This document shows positions 10,321-48,204 of a DNA stretch of 64,000 nucleotides, one piece after another. Source of the stretch: a virus. The translations under genes and the position numbers were made by a program. Location: positions 1-64,000 of the IMG/VR virus record IMGVR_UViG_3300037189_012690. The stretch is one strand, 5' to 3'. Each line of letters starts with the position of its first letter. The first letter of the stretch is position 1. A model generated the notes under the pieces. That model was not told where the DNA came from, did not search any database, and saw only the letters and a list, made by a program, of their open reading frames with translations.

Positions 10321-10325
10321 TACAA

Positions 10326-11059: not shown

Positions 11060-11069
11060 TCACACTCTA

Positions 11070-11300: not shown

Positions 11301-11323
11301 GTGTTTTTACGTGTTACTATATC

Positions 11324-11349: not shown

Positions 11350-11366
11350 CATTTAAGGAGAATAAC

Positions 11367-11438: not shown

Positions 11439-11464
11439 TACATTGTAAAATAAGTTTTAAGATA

Positions 11465-11485
11465 AGGGTAGCTTGCTACCTTTTT
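11465..11485 (+). terminator. Rho-independent terminator after pqqA
   Basis: GGTAGC and GCTACC flank a 2-base TT loop, followed by TTTTT. Confidence 0.85.
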
Positions 11486-11510
11486 CTACCTAATGGTTAT
11501 GCCCTGCCAG

Positions 11511-11517
11511 ATAAATA
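11511..11517 (+). promoter_or_regulatory. Late-type promoter, leaderless spacing
   Basis: ATAAATA lies 5 bases before the ATG at 11523, and no Shine-Dalgarno sequence is present. Confidence 0.6.
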
Positions 11518-11522
11518 TATCT

Positions 11523-12011: not shown

Positions 12012-12511
12012 AAATCTTTGAACTTGCAGGATCAAAAATTGATCCATTATTAATTGAGTTTTGGAAGCAAGCTAGTCCAATGCAATTGAACTATTACTTT
12101 GTACAAGATAATTGTTATGGCGCCAGTCAAGATTTTATATCATTCTTAGAGAATAAAGGTATAGGTAATGCCGAGATTGTTCCTATTGGTATTGTAAACA
12201 ACGGCAAGAAAAAATATGGATGGTTTCATGCAGACGAACCTGATCTACATATTGACGCACTAGAAACAAAAGATAAATTAGCAATGAAACAATTAGGTCT
12301 TGATCCACGCAAGAAATCAGACCGCATCAAATACATAAACAGTGATCCTGCAATACGTGAAGAATTCAAATGGATACCGCATAGTTGGGTTGAGTTACGA
12401 GGTCAGATACTAGACCCTAGTGGATTTTACTTTGATGGTAAGAGTGGTCAATTTGACCGTATGGTAAATGATAAATCTAACTTAAGTAGCAGGTACCGCT
12501 TCTTTAGTTAG
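12008..12511 (+). CDS. Phage protein of unknown function
   Basis: 167 aa, beginning MKIFELAGSK, a short tag similar to those on neighbouring late genes. The body contains NCYGASQDFISFL and FKWIPHSWVEL, which suggests a compact globular enzyme, possibly of papain-like (NlpC/transglutaminase-type) topology with Cys and His. That is a weak inference. The start overlaps the preceding stop; the 3' end overlaps the convergent metallopeptidase gene by 30 bp. Confidence 0.6.
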   Translation: MKIFELAGSKIDPLLIEFWKQASPMQLNYYFVQDNCYGASQDFISFLENKGIGNAEIVPIGIVNNGKKKYGWFHADEPDLHIDALETKDKLAMKQLGLDPRKKSDRIKYINSDPAIREEFKWIPHSWVELRGQILDPSGFYFDGKSGQFDRMVNDKSNLSSRYRFFS

Positions 12512-13474: not shown

Positions 13475-13481
13475 AATATAG

Positions 13482-13489
13482 TATTTATC
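13482..13489 (-). promoter_or_regulatory. T4-type late promoter
   Basis: ATAAATAC on the minus strand, 7 bases upstream of the ATG at 13474. Confidence 0.65.
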
Positions 13490-13542
13490 AGTCAGATACT
13501 CCGAAAAATAACGGGCAAACTTAAAACACATATATAAAGATT

Positions 13543-14148
13543 ATGAAATACTTATACGAAACATTTATTCCGGCTTCTATGCAACATGCAAAAGACATTG
13601 TATTGACCCCGGATCCTGCAAATCCTAATAAATTTGAGGATGAGACCAATCAATTAGTCAATATAATTGCTAACGAAAATATCATATCTGATCAAAAAGT
13701 TGTACTTGATTTTGGATGCGGAATGGGTCGTGTAAGCAAACAATTGATTGAGAGATTCAAATGTGAAGTTATTGGGTTAGACATGAGTATTGACATGCTA
13801 AAGTTGGCCACAATGTATGTTGCTGATTCTAATAAATTTGTTACCTGCAGTTCATTCATCCGTAAGGGAGTAATTGATGTTTGCTTAGCTGCATACGTTT
13901 TGCAGCATGTAGAACACCCAGTAAAAGAGATAGAAACTATAGCTGATGCTATGCGTAAAGATGGATACTTTATATTGCTTAACGAAGCTGAAGGTAGATT
14001 AGTTCCCGGTGATGTTAGGTCAGATAATAGTGTCATCTGGTTCAATGATGATTTTAATGTTTTTAAAGAAGTAGAGAAGCACTTTGCATTAGTCAAATCT
14101 ATTCCTTTCAGCGGAAAGATTGACGTAAAGATTTATAAGAAAAAGTAG
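13543..14148 (+). CDS. Class I SAM-dependent methyltransferase
   Basis: 201 aa. VVLDFGCGMGRVSKQLI is motif I, the SAM-binding glycine loop, and VIGLDMSIDML is motif II. AYVLQHVEHP fills the motif IV position common in small-molecule methyltransferases of the Methyltransf_11 type. Substrate unknown. A late-like TATAAAGA lies just before the ATG with no ribosome site. The last base of the stop codon is also the first base of tRNA-Thr. Confidence 0.85.
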   Translation: MKYLYETFIPASMQHAKDIVLTPDPANPNKFEDETNQLVNIIANENIISDQKVVLDFGCGMGRVSKQLIERFKCEVIGLDMSIDMLKLATMYVADSNKFVTCSSFIRKGVIDVCLAAYVLQHVEHPVKEIETIADAMRKDGYFILLNEAEGRLVPGDVRSDNSVIWFNDDFNVFKEVEKHFALVKSIPFSGKIDVKIYKKK

Positions 14149-14223
14149 CCCATTTAGCTCAGTTGGTAGAGCAACTGATTAGTAATCAGTAGGTCGGCGG
14201 TTCGAATCCGTCAATGGGCACCA
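14148..14223 (+). tRNA. tRNA-Thr (AGT)
   Basis: Acceptor GCCCATT/AATGGGC, anticodon stem ACTGA/TCAGT, loop TTAGTAA giving anticodon AGT, T arm GGCGG-TTCGAAT-CCGTC, encoded CCA. An A at position 34 is rare among bacterial tRNAs other than Arg-ACG. A second Thr tRNA (TGT) lies at 18354. Confidence 0.9.
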
Positions 14224-14255
14224 CCAAATATATTGATATTTTACATTTTCCCATG

Positions 14256-14263
14256 TATAAATA
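14256..14263 (+). promoter_or_regulatory. T4 late promoter for dnaK
   Basis: Exact TATAAATA followed by C, giving a predicted leader of roughly 60 nt before the dnaK ATG. Confidence 0.8.
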
Positions 14264-14268
14264 CATGT

Positions 14269-14327
14269 CTCAGATGCGCCTTACGGGCTTCTGATAAAAA
14301 ATCTTGCTTAATTTAAAGGAGAAAAAT
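14269..14327 (+). promoter_or_regulatory. dnaK 5' leader with ROSE-like RNA thermometer
   Basis: Two hairpins are visible. The first (about 14271-14293) has CAGATGC pairing with GCTTCTG apart from mismatches. The second pairs CTTGCTT (14303-14309) with AAAGGAG (14315-14321) across a 5-nt loop. Six pairs form, with a single bulged G opposite the Shine-Dalgarno sequence. This is the hallmark of ROSE thermometers, in which a UUGCU strand masks AGGA. The same hairpin occurs before hsp20. It would block translation until the helix melts. Confidence 0.65.
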
Positions 14328-16220
14328 ATGTCTAAGATTATAGGTATCGACCTAGGTACTACCAATTCATGCGTTGCTATCATAGATGGCAAAACCCCAA
14401 AAGTATTAGAGAACAGCGAAGGTGCAAGAACTACACCTAGTATTATTGCGTATATGCAAAACGGTGAAATCACTGTTGGTGCACCAGCAAAACGTCAAGC
14501 TGTAACTAATCCAAAAAATACAATCTATGCTGCTAAGCGACTAATCGGACGTAAGTTTGATGAGAAAGCAGTACAGAAAGATATTGACTTGATTCCATAT
14601 AAAATCGTTGCAGCAGATAACGGTGATGCATGGGTACAAGTAGAAGATAAGAAGTATGCACCACCTCAAATAAGTGCTGAAGTTTTACGTAAGATGAAAA
14701 AGACAGCAGAAGATTTCTTAGGTGAAGAAGTTACACAAGCAGTTATTACAGTACCAGCGTACTTTAATGACAGTCAACGTCAAGCAACTAAGGATGCAGG
14801 TAGAATTGCAGGCTTAGAAGTATTGCGTATTATTAATGAGCCAACTGCAGCAGCATTGGCATATGGAGTAGATAAGAATGAAAAAACAGACCGCAAAGTT
14901 GCTGTCTATGATCTTGGTGGCGGTACTTTTGATATATCTATCATTGACATCAATAATGTGGATGGCGATAAACAATTCGAAGTACTTTCCACAAACGGTG
15001 ACACATTCTTGGGCGGTGAAGATTTTGACCAAAGAATAATGGATCACATCATTGCTGAGTTCAAAAAAGATTCAGGTGTTGATTTAAGTAAAGACATGAT
15101 GGCACTACAACGTTTGAAAGAGGCAGCAGAACGTACAAAGATTGAACTATCTAACAGTACACAAACTGATGTTAACTTACCATACATCACTGCAGATGCA
15201 ACTGGTCCTAAGCATTTGAATGTTAAGATCACACGTGCTAAGTTAGAATCATTAGTAGAAGATTTAATTCAGCGTAGTATTGAGCCATGTAAAGTTGCAA
15301 TGAAAGATGCAGGCGTTACTGCAAGTGACATTGATGAGATTATTCTTGTTGGTGGTATGACACGTATGCCTAAGGTGCAAGAAGAAGTTGAGAAGCTATT
15401 CGGTAAGGCTCCACGTAAAGATGTTAATCCTGATGAAGCCGTTGCAGTTGGTGCAGCAATTCAAGGTGCAGTATTAGGTGGTGATCGTAAAGACGTATTG
15501 TTATTAGATGTAACTCCATTATCATTAGGCATTGAAACAATGGGTGGTGTTATGACTAAGATGATTAAGAAGAACACAACTATACCTACAAAGTACAGTC
15601 AAGTTTATTCTACTGCAGAAAACAATCAGCCATCAGTTACTATCAGTGTTTATCAAGGTGAACGTGAGATTGTAAGTGGTAACAAACGTTTAGGTGAATT
15701 CAATTTAGAAGGTATCGATCCAGCACCACGCGGAGTACCACAAATTGAAGTTACATTTGACATTGATGCGAATGGTATCTTATCAGTTAAAGCAGTTGAT
15801 AAGAAAACCAACAAAGAAAAAGAAATCACAATCAAAGCAAACAGTGGCTTATCAGAGCAAGAGATTGATCAAATGGTCAAAGATGCTGAATTGAATGCTG
15901 AAGAAGATAAGAAAATTGTTGAACTTGTTGGTGCACGTAATAGTTTAGATAGTAGCATTGGTCATCTTGAATCTCAAATTGAGAATTTAGGTGATTATGT
16001 TCCTGCTGAGGAAAAAACAGCCATCACTGAATCTCTAAGTAAATATAAAGAGACGGCAAAGGGCGATAGTAAAGATGACATGGACGCAGCAGTTAAAGAA
16101 ATTGGTGAGTTGATGCAGAAAACTATTGCTTGGGAAGCTGAGAAGCGCAACAAAGAAATGCCAGATGGTCCTCCAACTGATGAAACAGTTGTTGATGCCG
16201 AAGTAAAAGAAGCAAATTAA
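14328..16220 (+). CDS. dnaK: Chaperone DnaK (Hsp70)
   Basis: 630 aa, full length. The nucleotide-binding domain starts [15 protein letters not shown] and contains [42 protein letters not shown] and [10 protein letters not shown]. The substrate-binding domain follows ([17 protein letters not shown]), then a helical lid and an acidic tail ending with VVDAE near the C terminus, as in bacterial DnaK. It refolds proteins in an ATP-dependent cycle with DnaJ and GrpE, neither of which is encoded here. The start at 14328 has AAAGGAG. Control appears to be a late promoter plus a thermometer-like leader. Confidence 0.98.
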
Positions 16221-16226
16221 GCATCA

Positions 16227-16249
16227 AAGCGGGTGATTATCACCCGCTT
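16227..16249 (+). terminator. Hairpin after dnaK
   Basis: AAGCGGGTGA and TCACCCGCTT form a 10-bp stem around TTA. There is no T-run, so it may be a weak terminator or an RNA-stability hairpin. Confidence 0.6.
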
Positions 16250-16265
16250 CAATTATACCTTAACA

Positions 16266-16505
16266 ATGATAAGTTACCTAACTACCTTTCTTGCAGTGTT
16301 TGTAGTAGATATATTCTATACATACTATTTAAAAGCTATCAGTGAAAATGCCGCCCTAACAGCTAGTCTTTGGGGTGCTATTGTATGGTTAATTGGTAGT
16401 TTAGCTGTGATTGAATATACCGCCGATCATATGTTATTAATACCTGCATGTATAGGTGCATTTTGTGGTACATATGTAGGAATGAAACTTAGGAATAGAA
16501 AATAA
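16266..16505 (+). CDS. Small integral membrane protein
   Basis: 79 aa with three probable membrane segments: TFLAVFVVDIFYTYYL, LWGAIVWLIGSLAVI, and LLIPACIGAFCGTYVG. The start at 16266 follows the dnaK hairpin. The pattern is typical of small inner-membrane proteins found in phages and bacteria; function unknown. The stop directly precedes tRNA-Ser. Confidence 0.7.
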   Translation: MISYLTTFLAVFVVDIFYTYYLKAISENAALTASLWGAIVWLIGSLAVIEYTADHMLLIPACIGAFCGTYVGMKLRNRK

Positions 16506-16593
16506 GGAAGTGTGGTAGAGTGGCCGATTACACTAGCCTTGAAAGCTAGAGGCTCGAAAGGGTCCGTGAGTTCGAATCTCACCGCTTCCGCCA
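16506..16593 (+). tRNA. tRNA-Ser (TGA)
   Basis: Class II tRNA: acceptor GGAAGTG/CGCTTCC, anticodon TGA, long variable arm, discriminator G, encoded CCA. Confidence 0.95.
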
Positions 16594-16609
16594 AACAACG
16601 AGTGATATA

Positions 16610-17773
16610 ATGACAGATATAGTAGACGTAAATGATTTAATTGAACAGGGCAATGAATATCGTAATTCAACGCAGCCTGATAAAGCATTAGAATGTTATG
16701 CTCAAGCCTTTGTCAAAGACCCAACAAACCCTCATGCATGGAATAATTATGGAAATGTATTACGTGAAATGGGATATCCTGCACGTGCAATACCTTTCTT
16801 ACAACATGCATGTGCATTAGTGCCTGACTATATAACAGCACAGTTTAATCTATCAGTAGCATATATGTTAATGGGAGACTTAAAGCGTGGTCTTGAACAA
16901 TATGAATGGCGTTGGCAATATGAACATCTAGCAGATACAAAATATAAATTTTCTCAGCCTGAATGGAATGGTGAAGATTTAACAGGTAAAACTATCTTAG
17001 TATGTTGGGAACAAGGTTTAGGTGATACAATTCAATTCTATCGTTTTTTAAAATACTTAACTGCACTTGGTGCAAAAGTAATTTTCCATACACATCAGGG
17101 TATGCAAGAGTTATTTGAACGTGATCCTAATATTAATAGAGTTATTACTGATATCAATGATGCAGGTGAATTTGATTATTGGGTAATGACTATGAGTGTT
17201 CCTAGAGTATTAGGAGTAACTTATGATACATTGCCAAAAGAGATAGGATATATTCAAGCTGATCCTAATTTAGTTGAACAATGGCGAGTTGCATTAGGGC
17301 CTAAAACTAAAATGCGTATTGGTGTATGTTGGAGTGGTCGTAAAGATAGTTGGATCAATCAACATAAAGCAATGCCAGTAGAATTAATGATTCAGTTAGC
17401 ACAACTTAATCCTGATATTGAATGGGTTAGTTTACAGGCTGATGCAAGTCAACAAGAAATGCAATTAATAGAAAATAGTAATGCATTCTTAAGATTTCCT
17501 GGTCATATTAGACATTGGGGCGATACAGCAGCAGTTGTAGCGAATATGGATATGATAATCAGTGTAGATACAGCAATTGCACATTTAGCAGGTGCAATGG
17601 GTAAAGACTTATGGATACCATTGAATGCATTTGCAGTTGATTGGAGATATCTACTTAATACTGGATTAAGTCCATGGTATCCAACTGCTAGAATATTCAG
17701 ACAAGCAACATATGGTGATTGGATACCCGTATTAGAAGGAATGCATAGATTTTTGGATAAAGTCAGAATTTAA
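16610..17773 (+). CDS. TPR-repeat protein with glycosyltransferase-like C-terminal domain
   Basis: 387 aa. Residues about 5-105 are tetratricopeptide repeats (ALECYAQAFVKDPTNPHAWN, then AIPFLQHACALVPDYITAQF). The C-terminal part resembles GT-B transferases of the ADP-heptose or GT41 type: ILVCWEQGLGDTIQFYRFL, IGVCWSGRKDSW, and MIISVDTAIAHLAGAMGK for donor binding. It may add a sugar to a protein or surface glycan. No signal peptide. It sits inside the tRNA region between Ser(TGA) and an early promoter. Confidence 0.8.
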   Translation: MTDIVDVNDLIEQGNEYRNSTQPDKALECYAQAFVKDPTNPHAWNNYGNVLREMGYPARAIPFLQHACALVPDYITAQFNLSVAYMLMGDLKRGLEQYEWRWQYEHLADTKYKFSQPEWNGEDLTGKTILVCWEQGLGDTIQFYRFLKYLTALGAKVIFHTHQGMQELFERDPNINRVITDINDAGEFDYWVMTMSVPRVLGVTYDTLPKEIGYIQADPNLVEQWRVALGPKTKMRIGVCWSGRKDSWINQHKAMPVELMIQLAQLNPDIEWVSLQADASQQEMQLIENSNAFLRFPGHIRHWGDTAAVVANMDMIISVDTAIAHLAGAMGKDLWIPLNAFAVDWRYLLNTGLSPWYPTARIFRQATYGDWIPVLEGMHRFLDKVRI

Positions 17774-17777
17774 GTGT

Positions 17778-17806
17778 TTGACATTACTCTGCACTTATTA
17801 TATAAT
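17778..17806 (+). promoter_or_regulatory. Early sigma70-type promoter
   Basis: TTGACA (17778-17783), 17-bp spacer, TATAAT (17801-17806), 33 bases before the next ATG. It probably also feeds the downstream tRNAs. Confidence 0.9.
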
Positions 17807-17838
17807 TAAATCTCTTAAACCGTTATAAAGGACTATGT

Positions 17839-18060
17839 ATGAACAAATTTAATAGTTTGAAACCAGAAGTAAAGGCAATACTTGCATTGTTAGCTATGAT
17901 AGTAGGTGGTTATGCAGTACTATATTATATTAATCCAGTAGCTATAACATGGATTGCTATAGCACTTCTTGTTTATGCAATGTACAGTATGCTAGTGAGT
18001 TATTTTAGATTCTCACACGGTGTAGATAAGTTGAATGAGAAGTACGAGGACAAGCAGTAA
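17839..18060 (+). CDS. Small membrane protein
   Basis: 73 aa with two membrane segments (AILALLAMIVGGYAVLYYI and AITWIAIALLVYAMYSML) and a charged C-terminal tail. Preceded by a consensus early promoter and AAGGAC. Unknown function; its early expression suggests a host-takeover role (inference). Confidence 0.7.
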   Translation: MNKFNSLKPEVKAILALLAMIVGGYAVLYYINPVAITWIAIALLVYAMYSMLVSYFRFSHGVDKLNEKYEDKQ

Positions 18061-18070
18061 AGGTTGTATC

Positions 18071-18165
18071 GGAGAGTTGGCCGAGTTGGTCGAAGGCACC
18101 TTCCTGCTAAGAAGGCAAGCGGACACAAATCTGCTTCATTGGTTCGAATCCAATACTCTTCGCCA
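18071..18165 (+). tRNA. tRNA-Ser (GCT)
   Basis: Class II tRNA of 95 nt: acceptor GGAGAGT/ACTCTTC, anticodon GCT, discriminator G, encoded CCA. Confidence 0.95.
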
Positions 18166-18184
18166 TTAACATAAAGAGGAAAAT

Positions 18185-18346
18185 ATGGCAGTAAAAAAAG
18201 ATAGTAAACGTGATCCAATGAAAACTAAGACAGGCAAAACTAGATTAGGTCCTCTTAACGTAGAGCAGTTAACTAAACTTTTAGAATCAGCAAGACCTAA
18301 GCATGTTATGAAAATTAAACGTGCTATAGAAAGTAAGACTAAGTAG
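18185..18346 (+). CDS. Small basic phage protein, 53 aa
   Basis: ATG at 18185 is preceded by AGAGGA. A very lysine-rich start (VKKDSKRDPMKTKTGKTR) precedes a helical segment (LNVEQLTKLLESARPKH). This layout is common in small proteins of T4-like phages. Possibly nucleic-acid binding. It lies between two tRNA genes. Confidence 0.6.
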   Translation: MAVKKDSKRDPMKTKTGKTRLGPLNVEQLTKLLESARPKHVMKIKRAIESKTK

Positions 18347-18353
18347 TTAAAAC

Positions 18354-18427
18354 GCCCTTTTAGTTAAATGGTATAACAGTTGATTTGTAATCATCAATTG
18401 GCAGTTCGATTCTGTCAAGGGGCACCA
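18354..18427 (+). tRNA. tRNA-Thr (TGT)
   Basis: Acceptor GCCCTTT/AAGGGGC, anticodon loop TTTGTAA giving TGT, one mismatch in the anticodon stem, encoded CCA. Confidence 0.9.
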
Positions 18428-18437
18428 TTCAACAACT

Positions 18438-18667
18438 ATGCCACATCCAGCGGATATTACTAAACAGATACTTGATAGGATAATGAAACTTAAATCGTAC
18501 ACAGTAAGTGTACCGGTTGAAGAAGGCTGGCTGCCGCATGGTGTTGTACCGTTTGATATAAAGATTAAAAATTGTATTGCTACTGTTACACTACCTGCAT
18601 TAAGCAGAAAAGAAGCAAAGCAGAAGTTACAAGATTTTATCAATGGTGTAGATGAAGAAGATGATTG

Positions 18668-18677
<10 letters not shown>
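18438..18677 (+). CDS. Conserved phage-type protein, 79 aa
   Basis: 79 aa with a central beta-like segment (YTVSVPVEEGWLPHGVVPFD) and a helical acidic C terminus (DFINGVDEEDDW). No family recognised. The last 10 bases, including the stop codon, overlap the 5' end of the next tRNA gene. Confidence 0.6.
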
Positions 18678-18744
<67 letters not shown>

Positions 18745-18754
18745 AGTAGTAAAT

Positions 18755-18828
18755 GCGGGGTTAGTTTAATGGTAAAACGAAAGCCTTCCAAGCTCTAGTT
18801 GAGAGTTCGATTCTCTCACTCCGCTCCA
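18755..18828 (+). tRNA. tRNA-Gly (TCC)
   Basis: Acceptor GCGGGGT/ACTCCGC, anticodon loop CTTCCAA, T arm GAGAG-TTCGATT-CTCTC, encoded CCA. Confidence 0.95.
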
Positions 18829-18833
18829 GTAAT

Positions 18834-18917
18834 GCGAGAATGGTGGAATGGTATACACACAAGACTTAAAATCTTGCGCCGAAAGGATTGAGGGTTCAAG
18901 TCCCTCTTCTCGTACCA
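18834..18917 (+). tRNA. tRNA-Leu (TAA)
   Basis: Class II tRNA: acceptor GCGAGAA/TTCTCGT, anticodon stem CAAGA/TCTTG, anticodon TAA, encoded CCA. Confidence 0.95.
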
Positions 18918-18924
18918 TATTAAT

Positions 18925-19008
18925 GCGTAAGTGGTGGAATGGTATACACGCTGGTCTTAGAAGCCAGTGCCGAAAGGATTGAGAGTTCGAGTCTCTCCTT
19001 ACGCACCA
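18925..19008 (+). tRNA. tRNA-Leu (TAG)
   Basis: Class II tRNA: acceptor GCGTAAG/CTTACGC, anticodon TAG. The D arm and variable arm are nearly identical to the preceding tRNA-Leu, suggesting a local duplication. Encoded CCA. Confidence 0.95.
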
Positions 19009-19024
19009 ATTAATAAATAGATGT

Positions 19025-19201
19025 ATGAAAGTAAACGTATACATAAACGACACATTATACAAAACGATTGATTTAGGAAATGTAACTAGTTATAATCCTA
19101 AAGCAATTACTGACCTTGTATTCGCTGATAAAGAAGCAGGACTTATTCCTGCAAGTTTAAATTTAGATGAATCAATGTCAATTCGTATTGAAAGAGTGTA
19201 G
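19025..19201 (+). CDS. Small protein, 58 aa, unknown
   Basis: Starts at the ATG after TAATAAATAG, a late-like element, with no ribosome site. The sequence begins with a beta-like segment (VNVYINDTLYKTIDLG) and ends SMSIRIERV. No family recognised. It lies between tRNA-Leu and tRNA-Val. Confidence 0.55.
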   Translation: MKVNVYINDTLYKTIDLGNVTSYNPKAITDLVFADKEAGLIPASLNLDESMSIRIERV

Positions 19202-19207
19202 TCAACT

Positions 19208-19279
19208 GGGTGATTAACTCAGTGGTAGAGTAGCGCCTTTACACGGCGAATGTCGGGAGTTCGACCCTCTAATCACCCA
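19208..19279 (+). tRNA. tRNA-Val (TAC), CCA not encoded
   Basis: Acceptor GGGTGAT/ATCACCC, discriminator A, anticodon loop TTTACAC. The discriminator is followed by CTA rather than CCA, the only tRNA in the cluster without an encoded CCA. Confidence 0.9.
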
Positions 19280-19299
19280 CTAAACATAAAGGGAATACA

Positions 19300-19500
19300 A
19301 TGAAAGGCAGAACAAGTGAATTAGCTGCTAAGGCGGCAGGCGGTCTTTATGATTTAATTTTAATTGCAAGTGTGAGGGCACGTGAATTGAAAAGTGGTCA
19401 TGCACCTAAAATTGTTACTAAAGATAAAACTACAGTAACAGCATTAAGAGAAATCGAAGAAGGTCACATAGGTAGAGAATACCTAAACAAAATAAGATAA
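19300..19500 (+). CDS. rpoZ: RNA polymerase omega subunit-like protein
   Basis: 66 aa. The segment GLYDLILIASVRARELKSG matches the conserved helix of bacterial omega, which reads RFDLVLVAARRARQL. TTVTALREIEEGHIG matches its second signature (ALREIEEG). Omega latches the beta-prime subunit and helps RNA polymerase assembly. A phage copy could replace or compete with host omega. AAAGGGA precedes the ATG. It lacks the usual N-terminal residues before the first helix and has a short C-terminal tail. Confidence 0.85.
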   Translation: MKGRTSELAAKAAGGLYDLILIASVRARELKSGHAPKIVTKDKTTVTALREIEEGHIGREYLNKIR

Positions 19501-19505
19501 CATAT

Positions 19506-19579
19506 TCCGGTTTAGTATAATGGCAGTGCGATGGTCTCCAAAACCATTAGTGGGGGTTCGATTCCCTCAACCGGAGCCA
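19506..19579 (+). tRNA. tRNA-Trp (CCA)
   Basis: Acceptor TCCGGTT/AACCGGA, anticodon loop CTCCAAA, discriminator G, encoded CCA. Confidence 0.95.
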
Positions 19580-19586
19580 AACAATT

Positions 19587-19802
19587 ATGATACTTGTAGA
19601 AATATGTTCAGTAACAGGCCCATTAGCAGGCATGCCTCATAAAGCAAATGATAGATATAAAAAATTTTGCAATTGGGCTAAACAATACAATATCATTAAT
19701 TACAAATTTGTAGATAATAGTAAAAGAATCATTGAATTTTTAGATGATAAAGATTATACTCTATTTGTATTGACGTATCCACACGAATACAAAAAGCTTT
19801 AA
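19587..19802 (+). CDS. Small protein, 71 aa, unknown
   Basis: 71 aa starting MILVEICSVTGPLAG, with basic and aromatic stretches (RYKKFCNWAKQYN) and a C-terminal beta segment (YTLFVLTYP). No family recognised. Its stop codon is 1 base before tRNA-Cys; start chosen at the first ATG after tRNA-Trp. Confidence 0.5.
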   Translation: MILVEICSVTGPLAGMPHKANDRYKKFCNWAKQYNIINYKFVDNSKRIIEFLDDKDYTLFVLTYPHEYKKL

Positions 19803-19803
19803 T

Positions 19804-19881
19804 GCAACGGTGGCAGAGCGGCCCAATGCAGCAGATTGCAAATCTGTAAAACCGTGTGTTCAAATCACACCCGTTGCTCCA
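19804..19881 (+). tRNA. tRNA-Cys (GCA)
   Basis: Acceptor GCAACGG/CCGTTGC, anticodon loop TTGCAAA, discriminator T, encoded CCA. Confidence 0.95.
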
Positions 19882-21216: not shown

Positions 21217-22044
21217 ATGAGAAAAATAATTATATTGATGCTACTATTGTCCTTAGGATTAGTGGACACAGCATACGCAAGACATAAAAAGCATGTACAG
21301 AAAAAACAGGTTCATTCTGTTATCCACACCCATGCTAACTATCTGTTGGTTAATCTGACTGATAATTCAGTTGTAAACAGCAGCTATGATAATCAAAAAT
21401 TGAGCATCGCCAGCATAAGTAAATTAATGACAGTTTATACTGTTATGAAGAATGACGAGAATATGTATGAGGTGTTAACAGTAACACATAGCCCAGTAAA
21501 TCATACAAGATTAAATAAGGGTATGGCACTGACTAGGATGGATTTAGTAAAATTAGCTCTGATACACAGTGATAATTTAGCAGCTATTACGTTAGCAGAA
21601 AATGGTAAGGGTGGATTCAATAACTTCATCGGAGACATGAATACTAATGCTAGATCATTGGGTATGTTTAATACTGTATTTTATGAACCAACTGGCCTTG
21701 ATGCTAACAACAGTAGCACGTTAAGTGATATTGCAACATTGACTGCAGAGGTTAGTAAATACGATGTTTTCCGTGAAGCTGCACAAACAGAAAAACCATT
21801 GACTGTACATGCAATAAAAAAGAATAGACTAATTAACATTATTGTTTCTCCAACAAGCACAATGTTTGGTAAAGAAGGTATAATAACAATCAAAACGGGT
21901 TTTACAAACGCTGCTGGATTTTGTATAACTATGTTAGTGAATTGTGAAAATAAATTATATAGTTTAACTGTATTGGGCGCACGGACTAAACAAGAAAGAA
22001 AAATAATAGTAGAAAAATCGCTTCAAATGATAAATCAAGTTTAA
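21217..22044 (+). CDS. Secreted D-Ala-D-Ala carboxypeptidase-like protein (peptidase S11)
   Basis: 275 aa. A signal peptide (residues 1-21, hydrophobic LMLLLSLGLV and cleavage near AYA) precedes a penicillin-binding-protein fold. Catalytic motifs: S66-x-x-K69 in IASISKLM, S118-D-N120 in IHSDNLA, K226-T-G228 in IKTGFT. Low-molecular-weight PBPs trim peptidoglycan stem peptides in the periplasm. A phage copy may remodel the wall during infection or before lysis. The late promoter abuts the start codon. Confidence 0.92.
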   Translation: MRKIIILMLLLSLGLVDTAYARHKKHVQKKQVHSVIHTHANYLLVNLTDNSVVNSSYDNQKLSIASISKLMTVYTVMKNDENMYEVLTVTHSPVNHTRLNKGMALTRMDLVKLALIHSDNLAAITLAENGKGGFNNFIGDMNTNARSLGMFNTVFYEPTGLDANNSSTLSDIATLTAEVSKYDVFREAAQTEKPLTVHAIKKNRLINIIVSPTSTMFGKEGIITIKTGFTNAAGFCITMLVNCENKLYSLTVLGARTKQERKIIVEKSLQMINQV

Positions 22045-40126: not shown

Positions 40127-40473
40127 TTTGGTTCCTCTTTCTTATGATGAGGATGCGGTTCTTCTTCTACTGCCTGTCTAAATTTCTTTTCTGCCTCAAC
40201 ATCAACTTTATGTGCTTCCATAACACGTTCACTTTCAATAATCTTACCACGTAAATGAAGTGTAGTGTTAACTTTTTGTTGCAATCTTATTAAGTCATTA
40301 TCTAGCATACGAATACGGTCGATTAATGCAATCAATGTAGTATTCGCTTCACTGAGAACAGGCTTAATATCCTTAGTCGCCCATTCCCAAACATAGTATA
40401 TCATGTAACCGGTTCCGCCTGCAGCAACTATGGGAAAACCATATTTGTTAATTAAATCAGCTATGCCATCCAT
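40123..40473 (-). CDS. Membrane protein with helical tail, 116 aa
   Basis: 116 aa from ATG 40473; the longer frame starting near 40626 overlaps the upstream gene and is not needed. One helix (FPIVAAGGTGYMIYYVWEW) is followed by a coiled-coil region (LIALIDRIRMLDNDLIRLQQ) and a His/Glu/Pro-rich end. This architecture recurs in T4-like phages (compare 41417) and is holin- or spanin-like in outline, but function is unknown. Confidence 0.65.
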   Translation of the reverse strand: MDGIADLINKYGFPIVAAGGTGYMIYYVWEWATKDIKPVLSEANTTLIALIDRIRMLDNDLIRLQQKVNTTLHLRGKIIESERVMEAHKVDVEAEKKFRQAVEEEPHPHHKKEEPK

Positions 40474-41024
40474 TATACTATCATCCAAATAGCTTGTGCC
40501 ATTAGTATAGCACCAATACCGCCAACCCACAAGCTGGCCCAGAACATAGTCATACTCACTGCTAATATACTTGCTGATAATAACACAATTGCTAACTGAA
40601 ATGCAGTACCGGCAAATGTATACCACGGACTACGTTTTTTAGCTTCTGCTCTATCTGCTGCTAGTTTCTGAGCCTTAGCCATTAACTCTTTTTTACCCTC
40701 ACCTTTTTCAGGATCACTTTCGTATCTTGCAATCTTTGCTCTTAGCTTCTCAACCTTTGCTGCATCCTTACGTGACAATGCATCATCAAGTTGCCCTTCA
40801 GCAATACTTTGCTTAATACTTTTTGCTTGATAGAAACCCCAAGTATCGTTTGCTTCAATTGTATTGTTTAATATTTTACTACTATTACTATTGCCTAAGT
40901 AAGCATTAACTGCTAATAGTGCAGCAACAACTGTGATAACCCATCCTGCTTTATCTTTAATTTTAGCTTCGGCTTCACTTCTTGTCAATACTTTTCCTGT
41001 TGCTTTATCAATCATTTGTTTCAT
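40473..41024 (-). CDS. Membrane protein, DUF4337-like
   Basis: 183 aa. An N-terminal cytosolic helix leads to a membrane segment (WVITVVAALLAVNAYLG), then NTIEANDTWGFYQAKSIKQS, which is the recognisable DUF4337 core. A charged coil and two further membrane helices follow (LAIVLLSASILAVSMTM and LWVGGIGAILMAQAIWM). Function unknown. Ends overlap neighbours by 3-17 bp. Confidence 0.75.
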   Translation of the reverse strand: MKQMIDKATGKVLTRSEAEAKIKDKAGWVITVVAALLAVNAYLGNSNSSKILNNTIEANDTWGFYQAKSIKQSIAEGQLDDALSRKDAAKVEKLRAKIARYESDPEKGEGKKELMAKAQKLAADRAEAKKRSPWYTFAGTAFQLAIVLLSASILAVSMTMFWASLWVGGIGAILMAQAIWMIV

Positions 41025-41789: not shown

Positions 41790-42245
41790 ATGGTAGTCAA
41801 AAAAATAATAAAGGTGGCTGTTCTAACTGCACTAACCAGCGTAGTTTATGCTGCGCCTTTACCCGATTATAGTTTTAAAAGTCCATCCTTTAATGGTATT
41901 GGATACAGCAGCCACGTACTTACTATAGAGAATCAGGAACATACTAGAAAAGAACAATTGAGGAAAGATATACAGTCAGCAATAGATAAGGCTGCAGCAG
42001 ATGCCAAAAACACAAATCTACAGAAATTCCTTAATAACTTAGAATCACGAATCTATGCACAAATCAGTCAAAACTTAGCAACTGCTATGTTTGCTAATGG
42101 TGGTAGTAATAGTGGTACACTGAACTTTGAGGGGAATAATATTTCATGGACGAAAGATTCTAGCAACGTATATTTGACAGTAACAGATTTAGTAGGGAAC
42201 ACCACACAGATTACAGTACCATTAGGACAATTTCAATTTCAATAA
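41790..42245 (+). CDS. csgF: Curli assembly protein CsgF-like
   Basis: 151 aa. The signal peptide (residues 1-21, ALTSVVYA|A) is followed by the CsgF layout. An N-terminal segment (DYSFKSPSFNGIGYSSHVL) corresponds to the part that inserts in the CsgG pore. A helical middle follows (NNLESRIYAQISQNLATAMF). A C-terminal beta domain (VYLTVTDLVGNTTQITVPLG) ends the protein. CsgF sits at the outer surface and couples secretion to curlin nucleation. The TAATG overlap with csgG shows translational coupling. Confidence 0.9.
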   Translation: MVVKKIIKVAVLTALTSVVYAAPLPDYSFKSPSFNGIGYSSHVLTIENQEHTRKEQLRKDIQSAIDKAAADAKNTNLQKFLNNLESRIYAQISQNLATAMFANGGSNSGTLNFEGNNISWTKDSSNVYLTVTDLVGNTTQITVPLGQFQFQ

Positions 42246-43387
42246 TGAGAACAATAAAAATATTATTATTACTAAGTTTATTATCAGGATGTGCAGTATC
42301 GCAAAACGAGCGTATGGGGTCAGCTCCTAAACCTGTTAATATGCCAGTAATGATGCAAAAAGAATTTGATAAGATTCCGGGTCCTGCAGGTGGACAACCT
42401 ATTACAGTAGCACTGTATGGATTTACAGATAAAACAGGTCAGCGTAGACCACAACAAAACGTAGCAAGTTTAAGCACTGCAGTAACACAAGGCGGTGAAA
42501 TGTTTTTGATTAAAGCATTGCAAGATGTAGGACAAGGTAAGTGGTTCAAAGTAGTTGAACGTGTAGGCATAGATGGCTTAACACGTGAACGACAATTGAT
42601 TCGTCAAATGCGTGAAGCATATGAAGGATCAAATGCTAAGCCTTTGCCACCTATGATGTTCGCCGGTATATTATTAGAAGGTGGCATAGTTGGATATGAT
42701 AGTTCAACTAAGTCAGGCGGTATGGCAGCACGTTGGTTAGGCATAGGACCTCAAACACAATATAGTGAAGATATTGTTACTGTGAGTATCCGTGCTATCA
42801 GTGTAAGCACAGGTGAAGTATTAGCAGCAGTAACAATGCAGAAAACAATTGTTAGTGCAGGTGACTCAGTAGCAGCAATGAAGTTCTTTGACGTGGGCAC
42901 CAAAGCGTTTGAATTTGAAGCAGGGTTAACTGTAAATGAGCCAGGGACATTTGCAGTTAAGAGTGCAATTGAAGCAGCAGTGCTTGAATTGATTAAAGAA
43001 GGTGCACGTAAAGGTATCTGGGCAATTGAAGATACTAAACCTGGCGTAATAATTATACCCGCTTCAAAGCAAGAACCTAAGGTGGAAACAAAAAAAGAAG
43101 ATGTAAAGAAAGAAGAACCTAAGGTAGAAGTAAAAGAAGAACCAAAAGAAGAGCCTAAGGAAGAAGTTAAATCCGAAGAGCCAAAAGTACAAGAAGTTGA
43201 CACACACAGTGAAACAAAAGAATCAAATGATAATAGGTTTGCTCAAAAAAGTAAAGTATTAGTGATGATACCTATAAAGATGAGTAAGCCTACTATTAAG
43301 ATGAAACAAGAAGAAAAACATGCTAGAAAAATTAGCAATAAAAAACAGGTCATTAAGAACCTGCACAATAAAAAAAAGAAAAAGTAA
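42245..43387 (+). CDS. csgG: Curli secretion channel CsgG with long charged C-terminal extension
   Basis: 380 aa. Lipobox LLSGC (C16) marks an outer-membrane lipoprotein. The CsgG core is clear: ITVALYGFTDKTGQRRP, LIKALQDVGQGKWFKVVER, and MFAGILLEGGIVGYDSSTKS followed by GGMAARWLGIGPQTQY and VSTGEVLAAVTMQKTI. CsgG forms a nonameric pore exporting curlin. Beyond about residue 270 is a Lys/Glu/Pro-rich extension and a very basic C-terminal tail, absent from normal CsgG (about 277 aa). Confidence 0.97.
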   Translation: MRTIKILLLLSLLSGCAVSQNERMGSAPKPVNMPVMMQKEFDKIPGPAGGQPITVALYGFTDKTGQRRPQQNVASLSTAVTQGGEMFLIKALQDVGQGKWFKVVERVGIDGLTRERQLIRQMREAYEGSNAKPLPPMMFAGILLEGGIVGYDSSTKSGGMAARWLGIGPQTQYSEDIVTVSIRAISVSTGEVLAAVTMQKTIVSAGDSVAAMKFFDVGTKAFEFEAGLTVNEPGTFAVKSAIEAAVLELIKEGARKGIWAIEDTKPGVIIIPASKQEPKVETKKEDVKKEEPKVEVKEEPKEEPKEEVKSEEPKVQEVDTHSETKESNDNRFAQKSKVLVMIPIKMSKPTIKMKQEEKHARKISNKKQVIKNLHNKKKKK

Positions 43388-43403
43388 GGACTCGTGAAAA
43401 ATC

Positions 43404-44183
43404 ATGAAAACAAAAATAGTAGTAATGATGGCGTTATTAACTTTAGCCAGTGTTGCTATATCAGGGGACAACAAAGTTTATTTGGATCAAATTGGTGATC
43501 GTAGCACTATTACTATAACTCAAGACGGATCGAGCAACACCGTTAAGGGTATAGGAATAGCACAAGATGCTAATGCTAAAATATATGGTGATGATACTGC
43601 AGTAACAATCACACAAACAGGTATCAACAATCGTTTAACATTAGGTATTAACGGCGGATCATTAGGTTCAACAAACGTGTTCAGCTACAGTGTTTCAGGT
43701 AACAATGGCATTGCACTTATAAATTGTAATGACGCTGAAACAGGAAAATGTAATCGTAACAATATTGGTATTACACAAGTAGGTAATAATTCACAGGCTA
43801 ACGTTTCAATTAGCGGTGAAAACAATGTAGTTACTGGTAACAGTGCAGGTGGTAATAACAATGCAATGAACTTTAACATCATTGGTGATGGATTACATCC
43901 TAGCATTGGTATCACAGGCGGTGGCGGTAACACAGGTAATATTACATTAGCTCCTAGTGTAGGTATTAATGCTACTGCTACTATGGTTATAGCGGGTGCT
44001 AATAATAATGTGTCTATTAATCAAACTGGTGGTGCAGTACTAGGACATAGTGCTACATTAGCAGTTACAGGTAGTGGCAATACATTATCAGTAACTCAAT
44101 CAGGTACTGCAGGTGATAACACATTTAATTTACAAAGTTCAGGAAGTACTAATTCATTTACAATAACACAAACTGCCCAATAA
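43404..44183 (+). CDS. Curlin-repeat amyloid subunit (CsgA/CsgB-like), 259 aa
   Basis: A Sec signal (TKIVVMMALLTLASVAISG) precedes repeated curlin motifs of the form N-x-h-x-I-x-Q-x-G-x-x-N: YLDQIGDRSTITITQDGSSN, VTITQTGINNRLTLGING, IGITQVGNNSQANVSISG, VSINQTG, LSVTQSGTAGDN, and SFTITQTAQ. It is longer and more irregular than E. coli CsgA, with Gly/Asn-rich inserts. It would be exported by CsgG and polymerise outside the cell. Located 16 bp after csgG, with no promoter between. Confidence 0.92.
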   Translation: MKTKIVVMMALLTLASVAISGDNKVYLDQIGDRSTITITQDGSSNTVKGIGIAQDANAKIYGDDTAVTITQTGINNRLTLGINGGSLGSTNVFSYSVSGNNGIALINCNDAETGKCNRNNIGITQVGNNSQANVSISGENNVVTGNSAGGNNNAMNFNIIGDGLHPSIGITGGGGNTGNITLAPSVGINATATMVIAGANNNVSINQTGGAVLGHSATLAVTGSGNTLSVTQSGTAGDNTFNLQSSGSTNSFTITQTAQ

Positions 44184-44193
44184 GGGGAAGGAG

Positions 44194-45303
44194 ATGAAAA
44201 CATGGTACCTAAGAATATCCTTACTATTGCTGAGCATATCGCCAATGAACGTAAACGCAGCAATAGGGACGATAACGGAACAAGTTCAGACTCCGCCTTC
44301 GATACTACGACAGAAGCAGACGTTGACGGGGTCCAAAGGGACTGGACTGGAGATGTTAGATACGGTAAGAACCCAACAGGGAAAAGTGGGACTCACGTTC
44401 GCAGACAACACAAAGGTACAGGTAACGGAGAATAGTAAACTAGTTATAGATGATTTTGTTTATGATCCTAACAGCAAGACAGGTGGAAAACTTGCTGTTA
44501 ATATAGCATTAGGTACCGTACGTTACGCATCAGGTCAAATAGCAAAGAACAATCCACAATCAGTAGCAGTTAATACTCCATCAGCCACAATTGGTGTTCG
44601 TGGTACAGACTTCACCGCAGCAGTAGATGAACTTGGTCGTAGTACTATTGTGTTGTTGCCTAGTTGTCCAGTAGGCTGGCGTGATGTTAAAACAGATTGT
44701 AAGACAGGTGAGATTAGTGTAACAAGTGATGAAGGTGTTGTGATAATGAATCAACCTTTTCAGGCTACTGTAGTACAAACACGTGAAACAAAACCTATGA
44801 AGCCAGTTATATTAAAACTGGATGAAGACCAAATGAATAATTTATTGATTATGACTCCAGTTAAATCTGAGAACAACAATGAAGCACGTGGTGATACTAA
44901 AAAAGGTTTTCTAGACGTTGATTATTTAAAATATGAAGGACTAGATAATGTATTAGCAACACAAGATCCATTCAAGTATAGTAAATTAGATGTTAATTTT
45001 TTAGAAAGAGATTTTCTAGTTAATATACTTGATTTAATTAATGCTATGCTTAAAGCGCAGATGGATTATTTAGAGAATGCTAATGCTAGACTGTTACCTG
45101 ATTATGTAGCATTAACTGGTGTAGTAGCAGTCATTGAAGATCCAATTGTGCAATTATGTCGTGAAGATAATGGCAGTAACATTGCATGTGCTACAGTAAG
45201 ACAAACTAGAGATGTGACTATTACTATTAATCAAGAACGTATGGAATTTAAGAATCGTGTCAATGCAGGTGGCACAAGCAATATAACAATTACACAACAT
45301 TAA
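44194..45303 (+). CDS. FecR-domain secreted protein ending in a curlin-like motif
   Basis: 369 aa with a signal peptide (LLLLSISPMNVNA|A). The FecR domain is visible in VGLTFADNTKVQVTENSKLV, GTVRYASGQI and the signature TPSATIGVRGTDFTAAVD. The C-terminal third is helical, then ends VNAGGTSNITITQH, which matches a curlin repeat half. This suggests the protein can dock on or seed the fibre. FecR-domain proteins often sit beside CHASE2 cyclases, as here. The start overlaps no gene; 2 bases separate it from the next. Confidence 0.9.
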   Translation: MKTWYLRISLLLLSISPMNVNAAIGTITEQVQTPPSILRQKQTLTGSKGTGLEMLDTVRTQQGKVGLTFADNTKVQVTENSKLVIDDFVYDPNSKTGGKLAVNIALGTVRYASGQIAKNNPQSVAVNTPSATIGVRGTDFTAAVDELGRSTIVLLPSCPVGWRDVKTDCKTGEISVTSDEGVVIMNQPFQATVVQTRETKPMKPVILKLDEDQMNNLLIMTPVKSENNNEARGDTKKGFLDVDYLKYEGLDNVLATQDPFKYSKLDVNFLERDFLVNILDLINAMLKAQMDYLENANARLLPDYVALTGVVAVIEDPIVQLCREDNGSNIACATVRQTRDVTITINQERMEFKNRVNAGGTSNITITQH

Positions 45304-45304
45304 G

Positions 45305-45898
45305 ATGAACTTTAGACTAGCTACTATATTATATTTTGTTTTAGTTTTACTACTATTAGTGGTGGGTTATGCATGGAGTGCAGACAATACAATTAGTGTA
45401 GATCAAATTGGTACTGGCAATACAGTTACTATTGAACAAACAGGGTTAGGACACACCGCCACTATAAACACAGGCAGTATTAGTGATGTAGATTATTCTG
45501 TGTTTACAATAACTCAACAAGGTGCTGCTAAAACAGCAACCGTTGAAGTTAAAGCCGGAATTAATAACACAATAGACATTAATCAAAGTGGTTCAGGTAA
45601 TCACATAGCTAACATACAGAATTTACAAGGTAATGGTAACAGTATTACTATAGGACAAACAGGTTCAGGATCTCATACTTTAATTGTTGATGGTAATAAT
45701 GTAAATAATGGTAACACTATAACATCTACCCAAAGCGGTGATGTAGGATCAGATAAATGGTTTAAAGTTTATCTACACGGTGCAACAAATGCAACAGTCA
45801 ATGTAGTACAGGATAATCCAACTACAGTAGACCAAGCAAGTATTATGATTAACTGTGCCCCAGGCACGTGCGGCATGTATAGTTATATTAAACATTAG
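45305..45898 (+). CDS. Second curlin-repeat protein (CsgB-like), 197 aa
   Basis: A long hydrophobic N-terminal signal or anchor (LATILYFVLVLLLLVVGYAW) is followed by curlin repeats: ISVDQIGTGNTVTIEQTGLG, FTITQQGAAKTATVE, IDINQSGSGNHIANIQN, ITIGQTGSGSHTLIVDG. The C terminus (SIMINCAPGTCGMYSYIKH) has two cysteines and departs from the repeat. The retained hydrophobic N terminus and odd tail would suit a nucleator such as CsgB, but the role split between the two curlins is inference. Confidence 0.88.
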   Translation: MNFRLATILYFVLVLLLLVVGYAWSADNTISVDQIGTGNTVTIEQTGLGHTATINTGSISDVDYSVFTITQQGAAKTATVEVKAGINNTIDINQSGSGNHIANIQNLQGNGNSITIGQTGSGSHTLIVDGNNVNNGNTITSTQSGDVGSDKWFKVYLHGATNATVNVVQDNPTTVDQASIMINCAPGTCGMYSYIKH

Positions 45899-45907
45899 AC
45901 TATAAGA

Positions 45908-46051
45908 ATGAACATTGAATTAATTCTACGTATGATTGAACATGGTTATACTGTGCAGGATATCCATCTAAGACTTAGACACCGTATAGAACTAATAGAA
46001 CTAGTTATCCAAAATCATGAAAAATGGAAGCGGGAAGTAGAACAACAATAA
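45908..46051 (+). CDS. Small helical protein, 47 aa
   Basis: ATG at 45908, 10 bases after the CsgB-like stop. Predicted helix-rich with RMIEHGYTVQDIHLRLRHRI; the segment may form a small helix-turn-helix. Last gene of the curli transcript before the terminator. Function unknown. Confidence 0.5.
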   Translation: MNIELILRMIEHGYTVQDIHLRLRHRIELIELVIQNHEKWKREVEQQ

Positions 46052-46073
46052 TAAAGTAGTACGGTAGTTTTTG

Positions 46074-46113
46074 GTAGCGGTCTAATTATATCTAGTTAGA
46101 CTGCTATTTTTTT
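46074..46113 (+). terminator. Rho-independent terminator ending the curli transcript
   Basis: GTAGCGGTCTAA pairs with TTAGACTGCTAT (one G-T pair) across an AT-rich loop, followed by seven Ts. Confidence 0.85.
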
Positions 46114-46149: not shown

Positions 46150-48204
46150 ATGATTAAGAAAATATTATTAAGCCCTTGGACTTCACTAATAACACTAGCA
46201 TTGTTAGCATTATTGCGCATTGCAGATCCTGCATTTGTGGAATCAATTCGTCTACGATATTTTGATACTGTAATAATCAGTCAACCTATAACACAAAACA
46301 ACATCTACACCGTAAACATAGATGAGGCTACACTAGATAAGTATGGACAATGGCCTTTACCCAGAAATGAATATGCTAATCTAATTGATGAATTATATAA
46401 ACGTCATGCGGGGCTTGTAGTGTGGAATATATTAATGCCTGAAGCCGATCGTAACGGACAAGATGAAGCACTAGCAGAATCATTAGCAACTCATCCTGTA
46501 GTATTAAGTAACACACCTTCAGCACGTAGTAAGAATACACCTAAACAAGTTGGTGTAAGTATTATGCGTCCTGAATTTGTTGATAGAATTGTAGTGTATC
46601 CTGGATTAATTGCTAACGTAAGCCCATTAGAAGAAAATGCTGCAGGTGTTGGTATTGCAAATGTAATGCCTGAGATTGATGGTGTTAATCGTAGATTACC
46701 TTTAGTAGTAAGTGTAAATGATTTACTATATCCTTCAATAGCATTAGAAACATTACGTGTTGCTGCAGGTGATCCAAGTTTTCAAATTAAATTAAATGAA
46801 CTAGGTGTAGAGAAAATGCGTATACCTCAGTTCGGACCAATCAGCACTGATCCATTAGGTCGTATATGGATTGATTGGAGTCAAAGTAATAAGAGTGTAA
46901 GTGCAGTTGACTTACCCGCAGACTTTGGTGGTGCAATAGTAATCGTAGGAACAAGTGCAGCAGGTATAGCTAATCCAGTACCAACAGCACGTGGTGCAGT
47001 ATATCCACAAGATGTACAAGCAGCAGTAATTGGCACAATGATTAATGGAGTTAACATCGAACGTCCTGATTGGATAGACGGTGCTGAGATATTAGGCTTG
47101 ATACTAGTAGGTCTAATAATTATTTTTATATCAAGGTGGACATATGCTGGAATTATTATATCTGTCATTATTATTGGCAGCGTTGTGCCCGGTAGTTTTT
47201 ATACTTTTACCAAGTACAAATGGCTTGTCGATGCCACTGCGCTTATTGTTAGTAGTGTGTTGGTTATGCTACATTGCTATGGCATTAAGTTCATAAGTGA
47301 ATTTTTACAAAAACAACAAATTAAGAAACAGTTTGGTACATACTTATCACCAGACTTAGTTGCACAATTGCAACGACAACCCGATCTACTTAAGTTAGGT
47401 GGAGAAAGCCAAGAATTGTCTATTATGTTTACTGATGTTCGTGGCTTTACAACAATCAGTGAACATTATGGCAAAGACGTTCAGGGTCTTACAAAGATCA
47501 TGAATAGGTACATGACTGCTATGACAAAAAAGATACTAGAAAACAAAGGTACATTAGACAAGTATATTGGCGATGCACAAATGGCTTTCTGGAATGCTCC
47601 AGTAGGTAATAGCAATCATGCAAAAGATGCTGTTAAAACGGCATTAGAGATGATGGAAAGTTTAACTGAGTTCAATGAAGAAATTACGAAAGAAGGTGTG
47701 CCAGCTTTTGGTATGGGTCTGGGAATCAATACCGATACTGTTGTTGTGGGAAATATGGGGTCTAGTCAACGTTTTGACTATACTTGCCTTGGTGATGGTG
47801 TCAATCTTGCTTCACGTTTGGAAGGACAGTCTAAGCCTTATGGTGTCAAGATTGTATTAGGACCTAAGACAGCAGAACAGATAAGTGATGATTACTTCAC
47901 ATTAGAATTAGATATTATAGCAGTAAAAGGTAAGACTGAAGGTGTTAGAATCTTTACAGTATTAAAAACAGATGCAAACTCAATGGCAGAATATTTAGTA
48001 TCACGTGTAGAACATGACCTGATGCTGGATCACTACCGCAAGCAAAAGTGGGATGAAGCATTAGAACTACTGAACCAACTTCATGGGGAATTTGATTCAG
48101 AGATGGACAAATACTATCATATGATGATAGAAAGAATAGGAGAACTACGTGAACAAAATTTACCTTCTGATTGGGATACTGTGTATCGCACCAACTCTAA
48201 GTAA
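46150..48204 (+). CDS. CHASE2-domain adenylate cyclase (class III)
   Basis: 684 aa. An N-terminal helix and a periplasmic CHASE2 sensor (about 30-310) lead to three membrane helices (about 313-380) and a cytoplasmic cyclase domain. Metal aspartates are D429 (MFTDVRGFTT) and D475 (YIGDAQMAF). K471 is the adenine-selecting lysine, T545 sits where class IIIa enzymes have Asp (DYTCLGDGVN), and N552/R556 stabilise the transition state. It should make cAMP. Placement after the FecR and curlin genes suggests signalling from the fibre or envelope (inference). Confidence 0.93.
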   Translation: MIKKILLSPWTSLITLALLALLRIADPAFVESIRLRYFDTVIISQPITQNNIYTVNIDEATLDKYGQWPLPRNEYANLIDELYKRHAGLVVWNILMPEADRNGQDEALAESLATHPVVLSNTPSARSKNTPKQVGVSIMRPEFVDRIVVYPGLIANVSPLEENAAGVGIANVMPEIDGVNRRLPLVVSVNDLLYPSIALETLRVAAGDPSFQIKLNELGVEKMRIPQFGPISTDPLGRIWIDWSQSNKSVSAVDLPADFGGAIVIVGTSAAGIANPVPTARGAVYPQDVQAAVIGTMINGVNIERPDWIDGAEILGLILVGLIIIFISRWTYAGIIISVIIIGSVVPGSFYTFTKYKWLVDATALIVSSVLVMLHCYGIKFISEFLQKQQIKKQFGTYLSPDLVAQLQRQPDLLKLGGESQELSIMFTDVRGFTTISEHYGKDVQGLTKIMNRYMTAMTKKILENKGTLDKYIGDAQMAFWNAPVGNSNHAKDAVKTALEMMESLTEFNEEITKEGVPAFGMGLGINTDTVVVGNMGSSQRFDYTCLGDGVNLASRLEGQSKPYGVKIVLGPKTAEQISDDYFTLELDIIAVKGKTEGVRIFTVLKTDANSMAEYLVSRVEHDLMLDHYRKQKWDEALELLNQLHGEFDSEMDKYYHMMIERIGELREQNLPSDWDTVYRTNSK

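Follow-up and report, generated by a model that had tools for sequence, protein, structure and literature searches.

The stretch of DNA analyzed here (the window) comprises the first 64,000 nucleotides of IMG/VR virus record IMGVR_UViG_3300037189_012690, a contig of 64,596 bases. It carries a block of six plus-strand genes of curli (type VIII secretion) character in the order CsgF-CsgG-curlin 1-FecR-curlin 2-CHASE2 cyclase (Table 1), which is the order by which a pelagiphage-type viral curli module is recognized. A previous reading of the letters alone (the sequence-only reading) had described CsgF, CsgG, and two curlin subunits at 41790-45898. These coordinates were correct and both subunits are present after CsgG; missed were the FecR-domain gene that separates the two curlin genes (44194-45303) and the cyclase gene that follows them. 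The Pfam matches of the block proteins were judged against curated cutoffs, and all exceeded them.

Table 1. Features of the curli block (positions in the window)
Feature	Position	Strand	Evidence
CsgF, outer-membrane pore cap/coupler, 151 aa; signal peptide, F-x-x-P-x-F-x-G pore-binding segment	41790..42245	+	PF10614, phrog_35372
CsgG, outer-membrane lipoprotein secretion pore, 380 aa; charged C-terminal extension (~residues 262-380)	42245..43387	+	PF03783, phrog_20175, CsgG structures
Curlin 1, amyloid fiber subunit, 259 aa; signal peptide, 7 strict repeat motifs	43404..44183	+	PF07012, shuffles, 8c50/8enq, AlphaFold2 (AF2) model
FecR-domain protein; signal peptide, FecR core (~25-205), disordered linker, curlin-like C-terminal unit (~308-369); proposed anchor/nucleator	44194..45303	+	PF04773, phrog_37870, AF2 model, fold matches, tail-curlin profile test
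Curlin 2, second fiber subunit, 197 aa; 5 strict repeat motifs	45305..45898	+	PF07012, motif count versus shuffles
Putative small open reading frame (ORF), 47 aa, between curlin 2 and terminator	45908..46051	+	read from sequence
Intrinsic terminator between fiber genes and cyclase; 16-bp stem, 4-nt loop, then T run	46073..46108	+	scan, RNA fold
CHASE2 adenylate cyclase, 684 aa; periplasmic CHASE2 sensor, membrane helices, class III cyclase	46150..48204	+	PF05226, PF00211, phrog_35576, motifs

The identifications of the pore and its coupler made in the sequence-only reading were borne out by profile searches. CsgG matched PF03783 (E = 2.1e-46) and phrog_20175 (6.7e-85), and its profile found the structures of Escherichia coli CsgG (2e-70); Cys16 of the lipobox is unchanged across 13 relatives. 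CsgF matched PF10614 (E = 2.4e-13) and phrog_35372 (3.5e-66). Residues F29, P32, F34, and G36 of its pore-binding segment are invariant among 14 phage CsgFs, and its alignment to the CsgF of structure 6l7a covers this segment only and is weak (E = 0.44). In three viral loci (L004, 7959-9206; L007, 7995-9152; and L010, 7995-9209), the CsgG extension has a charged linker and then, as judged by eye, ends in a domain resembling bacterial SH3, by which the pore could be attached to the cell wall. An SH3 domain was looked for in another frame of the CsgG extension of the window and was not found.

The two curlin-repeat subunits were confirmed in the same way (PF07012; E = 2.9e-8 for curlin 1 and 4.5e-11 for curlin 2). 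Their strict motif counts of 7 and 5, against 0.15 and 0.12 expected, were reached by none of 20,000 shuffles, and every remaining ORF of the window holds at most one such motif. A profile of curlin 1 and its relatives matched the solved curlin fibers 8c50 (1.3e-21) and CsgA 8enq (1.7e-5). The AF2 model of curlin 1 (predicted local distance difference test [pLDDT] score, 86) consists of short strands that form a ladder; a fold search with this model returned no significant solved match.

The protein encoded between the curlins matched the FecR domain (PF04773, 1e-10) and phrog_37870 (1.9e-127). Its AF2 model has a mean pLDDT of 82, with the core and the tail at approximately 90 or more and a poorly ordered linker in between. 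The chain starts with a signal-peptide-like helix (residues 2-14) followed by the exported core, and the tail forms six short strands (residues 310 to 368; pLDDT of ~90). The C-terminal ends of the family resemble curlin strands. When the tail profile was compared with those of phage curlin 1, phage curlin 2, and cellular curlins, each comparison scored above all 150 column shuffles, and the profile-profile alignment with curlin 1 extends to the C terminus. The strand motif occurs at the ends of 63 of 79 FecR proteins, compared with 2.4% of other ORFs, a count that cannot serve as independent support, since these are related proteins and the motif had been noticed before counting. From the profile comparisons, the tail is likely, but not certainly, homologous to curlins; if it were convergent instead, a strand pattern able to stack on curlins would carry the same functional meaning. 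The FecR profile found nothing real when searched against the sequences of solved structures, and the core fold matched the cell-surface anchoring domain 5ix9 (template modeling score of 0.73 on the target). In Alphaproteobacteria, relatives of the core lie near the N terminus (residues ~70-300) of long adhesin-like proteins, one of which has 5,657 aa and RTX-like repeats.

The last gene of the block encodes a protein matching CHASE2 (PF05226, 2e-40), the class III cyclase domain (PF00211, 8.5e-22), and phrog_35576 (2.6e-242). Class III cyclases rely on a catalytic Asp pair, a Lys, a Thr/Asp, an Asn, and an Arg. The window protein has all of these in addition to the CHASE2 domain, with the motifs FTDVRGFT, DKYIGD, YTCLGD, and VNLASR intact. 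Viral cyclases come in two forms, the canonical one found in the window and one in which Ser replaces the Asn of the VNxxxR motif (YDILGDMVSTAARL; L007, L012, L015, L105, and others); the activity of the Ser form may be lowered or changed. A free-standing ORF of ~100 to 130 aa that resembles the C-terminal tail of the CHASE2 cyclase lies upstream of CsgF in L004 (7026-7403), with similar ORFs in ~14 other viral loci; none was seen in the window.

The terminator between curlin 2 and the cyclase is strong (RNA fold of -19.2 kcal/mol; z of -4.0; 0 of 200 shuffles equally stable), so a single transcription unit is probably too simple a description of the fiber genes and the cyclase. The T4-type late promoter (TATAAATA) is absent upstream of CsgF and occurs at chance level across the window, and a promoter scan of the curli block likewise gave chance level.

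To place the block among other curli loci, we used two scans of viral contigs (IMG/VR) and one of GTDB genomes, which gave ~90 loci on viral contigs and 80 in genomes. A viral locus was considered testable if at least 4.5 kb of sequence followed CsgG (n = 69). Curlin and FecR genes were present in all 69, CsgF in 68, and the cyclase in 61, and in most viral loci a curlin gene lies directly between CsgG and FecR. The sequence-only reading had suggested that this gene order be sought in other phages; it is found in the cultured phages HTVC008M and Melnitz as well as in dozens of viral contigs. Seven of the curli-bearing viral contigs measure 212 to 358 kb, and six of the seven carry Gp23. In contrast, neither FecR nor the cyclase was found in ordinary cellular curli loci (0/62 for each). 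In the CsgG tree, one branch separates 47 ordinary cellular genes from all viral genes (Shimodaira-Hasegawa-like approximate likelihood ratio test support of 99). Eight genome loci, set aside beforehand mostly because they carried FecR or cyclase, group on the viral side; several of them, on short contigs in metagenome bins, are probably phage.

Bacterial curli operons are said to be without FecR and cyclase (Wittmers et al., PMC9599517). A 705-kb chromosomal contig of Hyphomonas sp. TMED17 (L021, 9330-15353) is an exception: it has CsgF-CsgG-curlin-FecR-cyclase in the phage order, with ordinary bacterial genes as neighbors, and so represents a phage-type operon in a cellular genome. When the phage FecR profile was compared with 289 genomes of its class, this one matched far better than any other (6e-53, compared with 1.5e-35 for the next). 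Its gene order resembles that of the window, but its FecR protein lacks the curlin-like end. The operon may belong to the lineage that was the source of the module, or it may be a phage module captured by the bacterium; its CsgG branch is too long to decide between the two.

The sequence-only reading had presumed that fiber subunits alongside the pore on a phage would be new; however, the full module was described in 2022. CsgF and CsgG with unidentified neighbors were reported in pelagimyophages by Zaragoza-Solas et al. in 2020 (PMC7029224), and curli genes were reported in a T4-like virus in a marine Bacteroidetes virus study of the same year (PMC7198788). Wittmers et al. (2022) then identified the curlin subunits, FecR, and the cyclase in podo- and myo-pelagiphages, in the same order as in the window, and showed that viral curli genes are expressed in ocean metatranscriptomes (PMC9599517). 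The roles put forward in the sequence-only reading (i.e., holding hosts or progeny close, blocking superinfection, and use of the pore) are also already in the literature (PMC7029224, PMC9004378, and PMC9599517). The closest described relatives are Pelagibacter phage HTVC008M (NC_020484, gp14-gp19), with six genes in identical order and CsgG and FecR 45% and 44% identical to those of the window, and Methylophilales phage Melnitz (MZ577097), with the same six-gene order and 42 to 45% identity. Near-identical DNA was not found in deposited phages. The published pelagiphage modules belong to podo- and myo-pelagiphages of marine SAR11 (147 kb for HTVC008M), whereas the set examined here includes the 212- to 358-kb contigs. 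The published modules are also reportedly preceded by a histidine kinase, whereas the genes immediately upstream of CsgF in the window lie on the opposite strand and gave no kinase match among those scanned. Alphaproteobacterial curli operons (e.g., that of Sphingomonas) have the pore, cap, and curlins in the order of the window and, like it, no CsgE, but FecR and the cyclase are absent from all 62 ordinary loci and their CsgG lies across the supported branch. New, as far as we found, are the near invariance of the module in the 69 testable IMG/VR loci, including the 212- to 358-kb contigs, most with a T4-type capsid; the presence of both FecR and the cyclase in a single Hyphomonas contig against their absence from the 62 ordinary cellular loci; and the curlin-like repeat at the end of the phage FecR protein together with its giant adhesin-like relatives. 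No report of curli in jumbo phages was found in an incomplete search of the literature.

Our reading, given a probability of roughly 0.6, is that the block is a curli module carried by a large T4-like phage, of which the contig is a fragment. The parts themselves are shown by sequence, each with a family match over its full length, and their order is conserved across many viruses; this supports the system of channel, coupler, and subunits proposed in the sequence-only reading. Fiber formation and a benefit to the phage are predictions. During infection, curlin subunits exported by Sec would cross CsgG-CsgF and polymerize into amyloid fibers on the infected cell. The FecR protein would form the base of the fiber: its FecR module would be held at or inside the outer membrane, like the retention module of giant adhesins, and its curlin-like end would join or template the first fiber layer. 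The cyclase, with its periplasmic CHASE2 domain as the sensor, would most likely respond to the FecR protein or the load of subunits and make cyclic AMP (cAMP) in the infected cell. The likeliest payoff would be that the infected cell acquires an altered surface, leading to aggregation or adhesion or to the exclusion of other phages, a choice that the sequence does not decide. In phage curli, viruses would be supplying their host with an extracellular structure that may be absent from its own repertoire. The loci described here also widen the known carriers of curli to jumbo T4-like phages and add one cellular operon of the same makeup.

Several results weigh against this reading. CsgE (PF10627) had no match in the record, with the E. 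coli control positive, and in the Melnitz study clumping was seen neither in cytograms nor by transmission electron microscopy (PMC9004378). For the FecR tail, HHalign probabilities were low in absolute terms (4 to 9%) because the stretch is short, Pfam gave no Curlin_rpt match on the tail in 44 FecR proteins, and a hidden Markov model of the single cellular curlin repeat failed to separate FecR tails from shuffles. The core fold also matches true anti-sigma regulators, i.e., FecR/PupR domains (the PupR and BDI_1681 structures). The anchoring, nucleating, and cAMP steps are ones that we infer.

A pore without a fiber was argued for Melnitz by Buchholz et al. in 2022, since clumping was not seen and csgA/B seemed absent (PMC9004378); the lack of CsgE would also fit it. 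CsgG-CsgF would then be a regulated outer-membrane hole that times lysis or admits nutrients, and the curlin-like proteins would be plugs or serve another use. We regard this as unlikely. Curlin genes are present in every testable viral locus, the Melnitz record itself annotates two curlin-repeat proteins, and a lysis pore has no need of curlins or of a cap conserved across such divergence. The missing gate, CsgE, is the periplasmic adaptor of enteric curli and is lacking in many lineages; alphaproteobacterial and pelagiphage modules without it are counted as curli (PMC9599517). With subunits in every testable locus, the choice between fiber and pore has become testable.

For the FecR protein, the published reading is regulatory: together with the cyclase, it would sense iron or the envelope state and control the curli genes (Wittmers et al., PMC9599517), with the curlin-like end being due to chance or serving stability only. 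The resemblance of the core to FecR/PupR anti-sigma regulators favors this, but we consider it quite unlikely. The protein begins with its signal peptide and has no N-terminal cytoplasmic anti-sigma part before the exported core, and no sigma factor was found among the neighboring proteins scanned. The curlin-like tail, which outscored all shuffles against three curlin profiles, and the anchoring-domain and giant-protein relatives of the core point instead to retention of the fiber at the pore. The protein thus appears to read better as a fiber anchor or nucleator than as an iron regulator, which gives the roles of FecR and the cyclase a testable form. More specifically, and tentatively, with the odds somewhat against it, the phage FecR protein could be a new kind of nucleator-anchor for curli, in which a retention module of adhesin type is fused to a curlin unit; it would fix the fiber at the CsgG pore and signal fiber status to the CHASE2 cyclase. 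A precedent for the pairing is the Burkholderia BiofilmReg operon, in which a periplasmic FecR-domain protein adjoins a CHASE2 sensor and is linked to biofilm (PMC5192318); by analogy, the phage cyclase may sense the FecR protein. The Burkholderia sensor is a histidine kinase, however, its FecR protein carries LysM, and the operon has no curli genes. If the nucleator-anchor proposal were true, phages would have combined a curli operon with a pair used in biofilm sensing (FecR-CHASE2), and the amyloid system so formed would inform the infected cell about the progress of fiber assembly.

The viral origin of the contig is evident from its other genes. It has 16 tRNA genes (9927-19881), including a Thr tRNA with anticodon AGT, and a phage-type dCMP deaminase; other window proteins match phage endolysin-type transglycosylases, a tail fiber family, and ClpX-like proteins of large phages. 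A 638-aa protein (14304-16220) recurs at ~70% identity in 8 of the 17 other curli-bearing viral contigs searched, including contigs of 245, 213, and 329 kb, and the 245- and 329-kb relatives encode a T4-type Gp23 capsid. As no capsid or terminase match was found in the window itself, it is from these relatives that the contig is probably a fragment of a T4-like jumbo phage. Although cellular curli operons do exist in Alphaproteobacteria, an assembly chimera joining a host curli operon to phage sequence, which the sequence-only reading had named as something that would overturn it, is very unlikely and was rejected: no support for it was found, the base composition of the block is continuous with its flanks, dozens of independent viral contigs and two cultured phage species share its gene order, four of the proteins have dedicated PHROG families, and the window CsgG groups with viral CsgGs in the tree.

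Elsewhere in the window, three radical SAM proteins are encoded close together at 598-6199 (598-2061, 3586-4644, and 5219-6199), and a D-alanyl-D-alanine carboxypeptidase gene (Peptidase_S11, 6.9e-35) lies at 21217-22044. A gene on the opposite strand, a short distance upstream of the curli block (40473-41024), encodes a DUF4337 protein (6.9e-30) that has almost no PHROG match.

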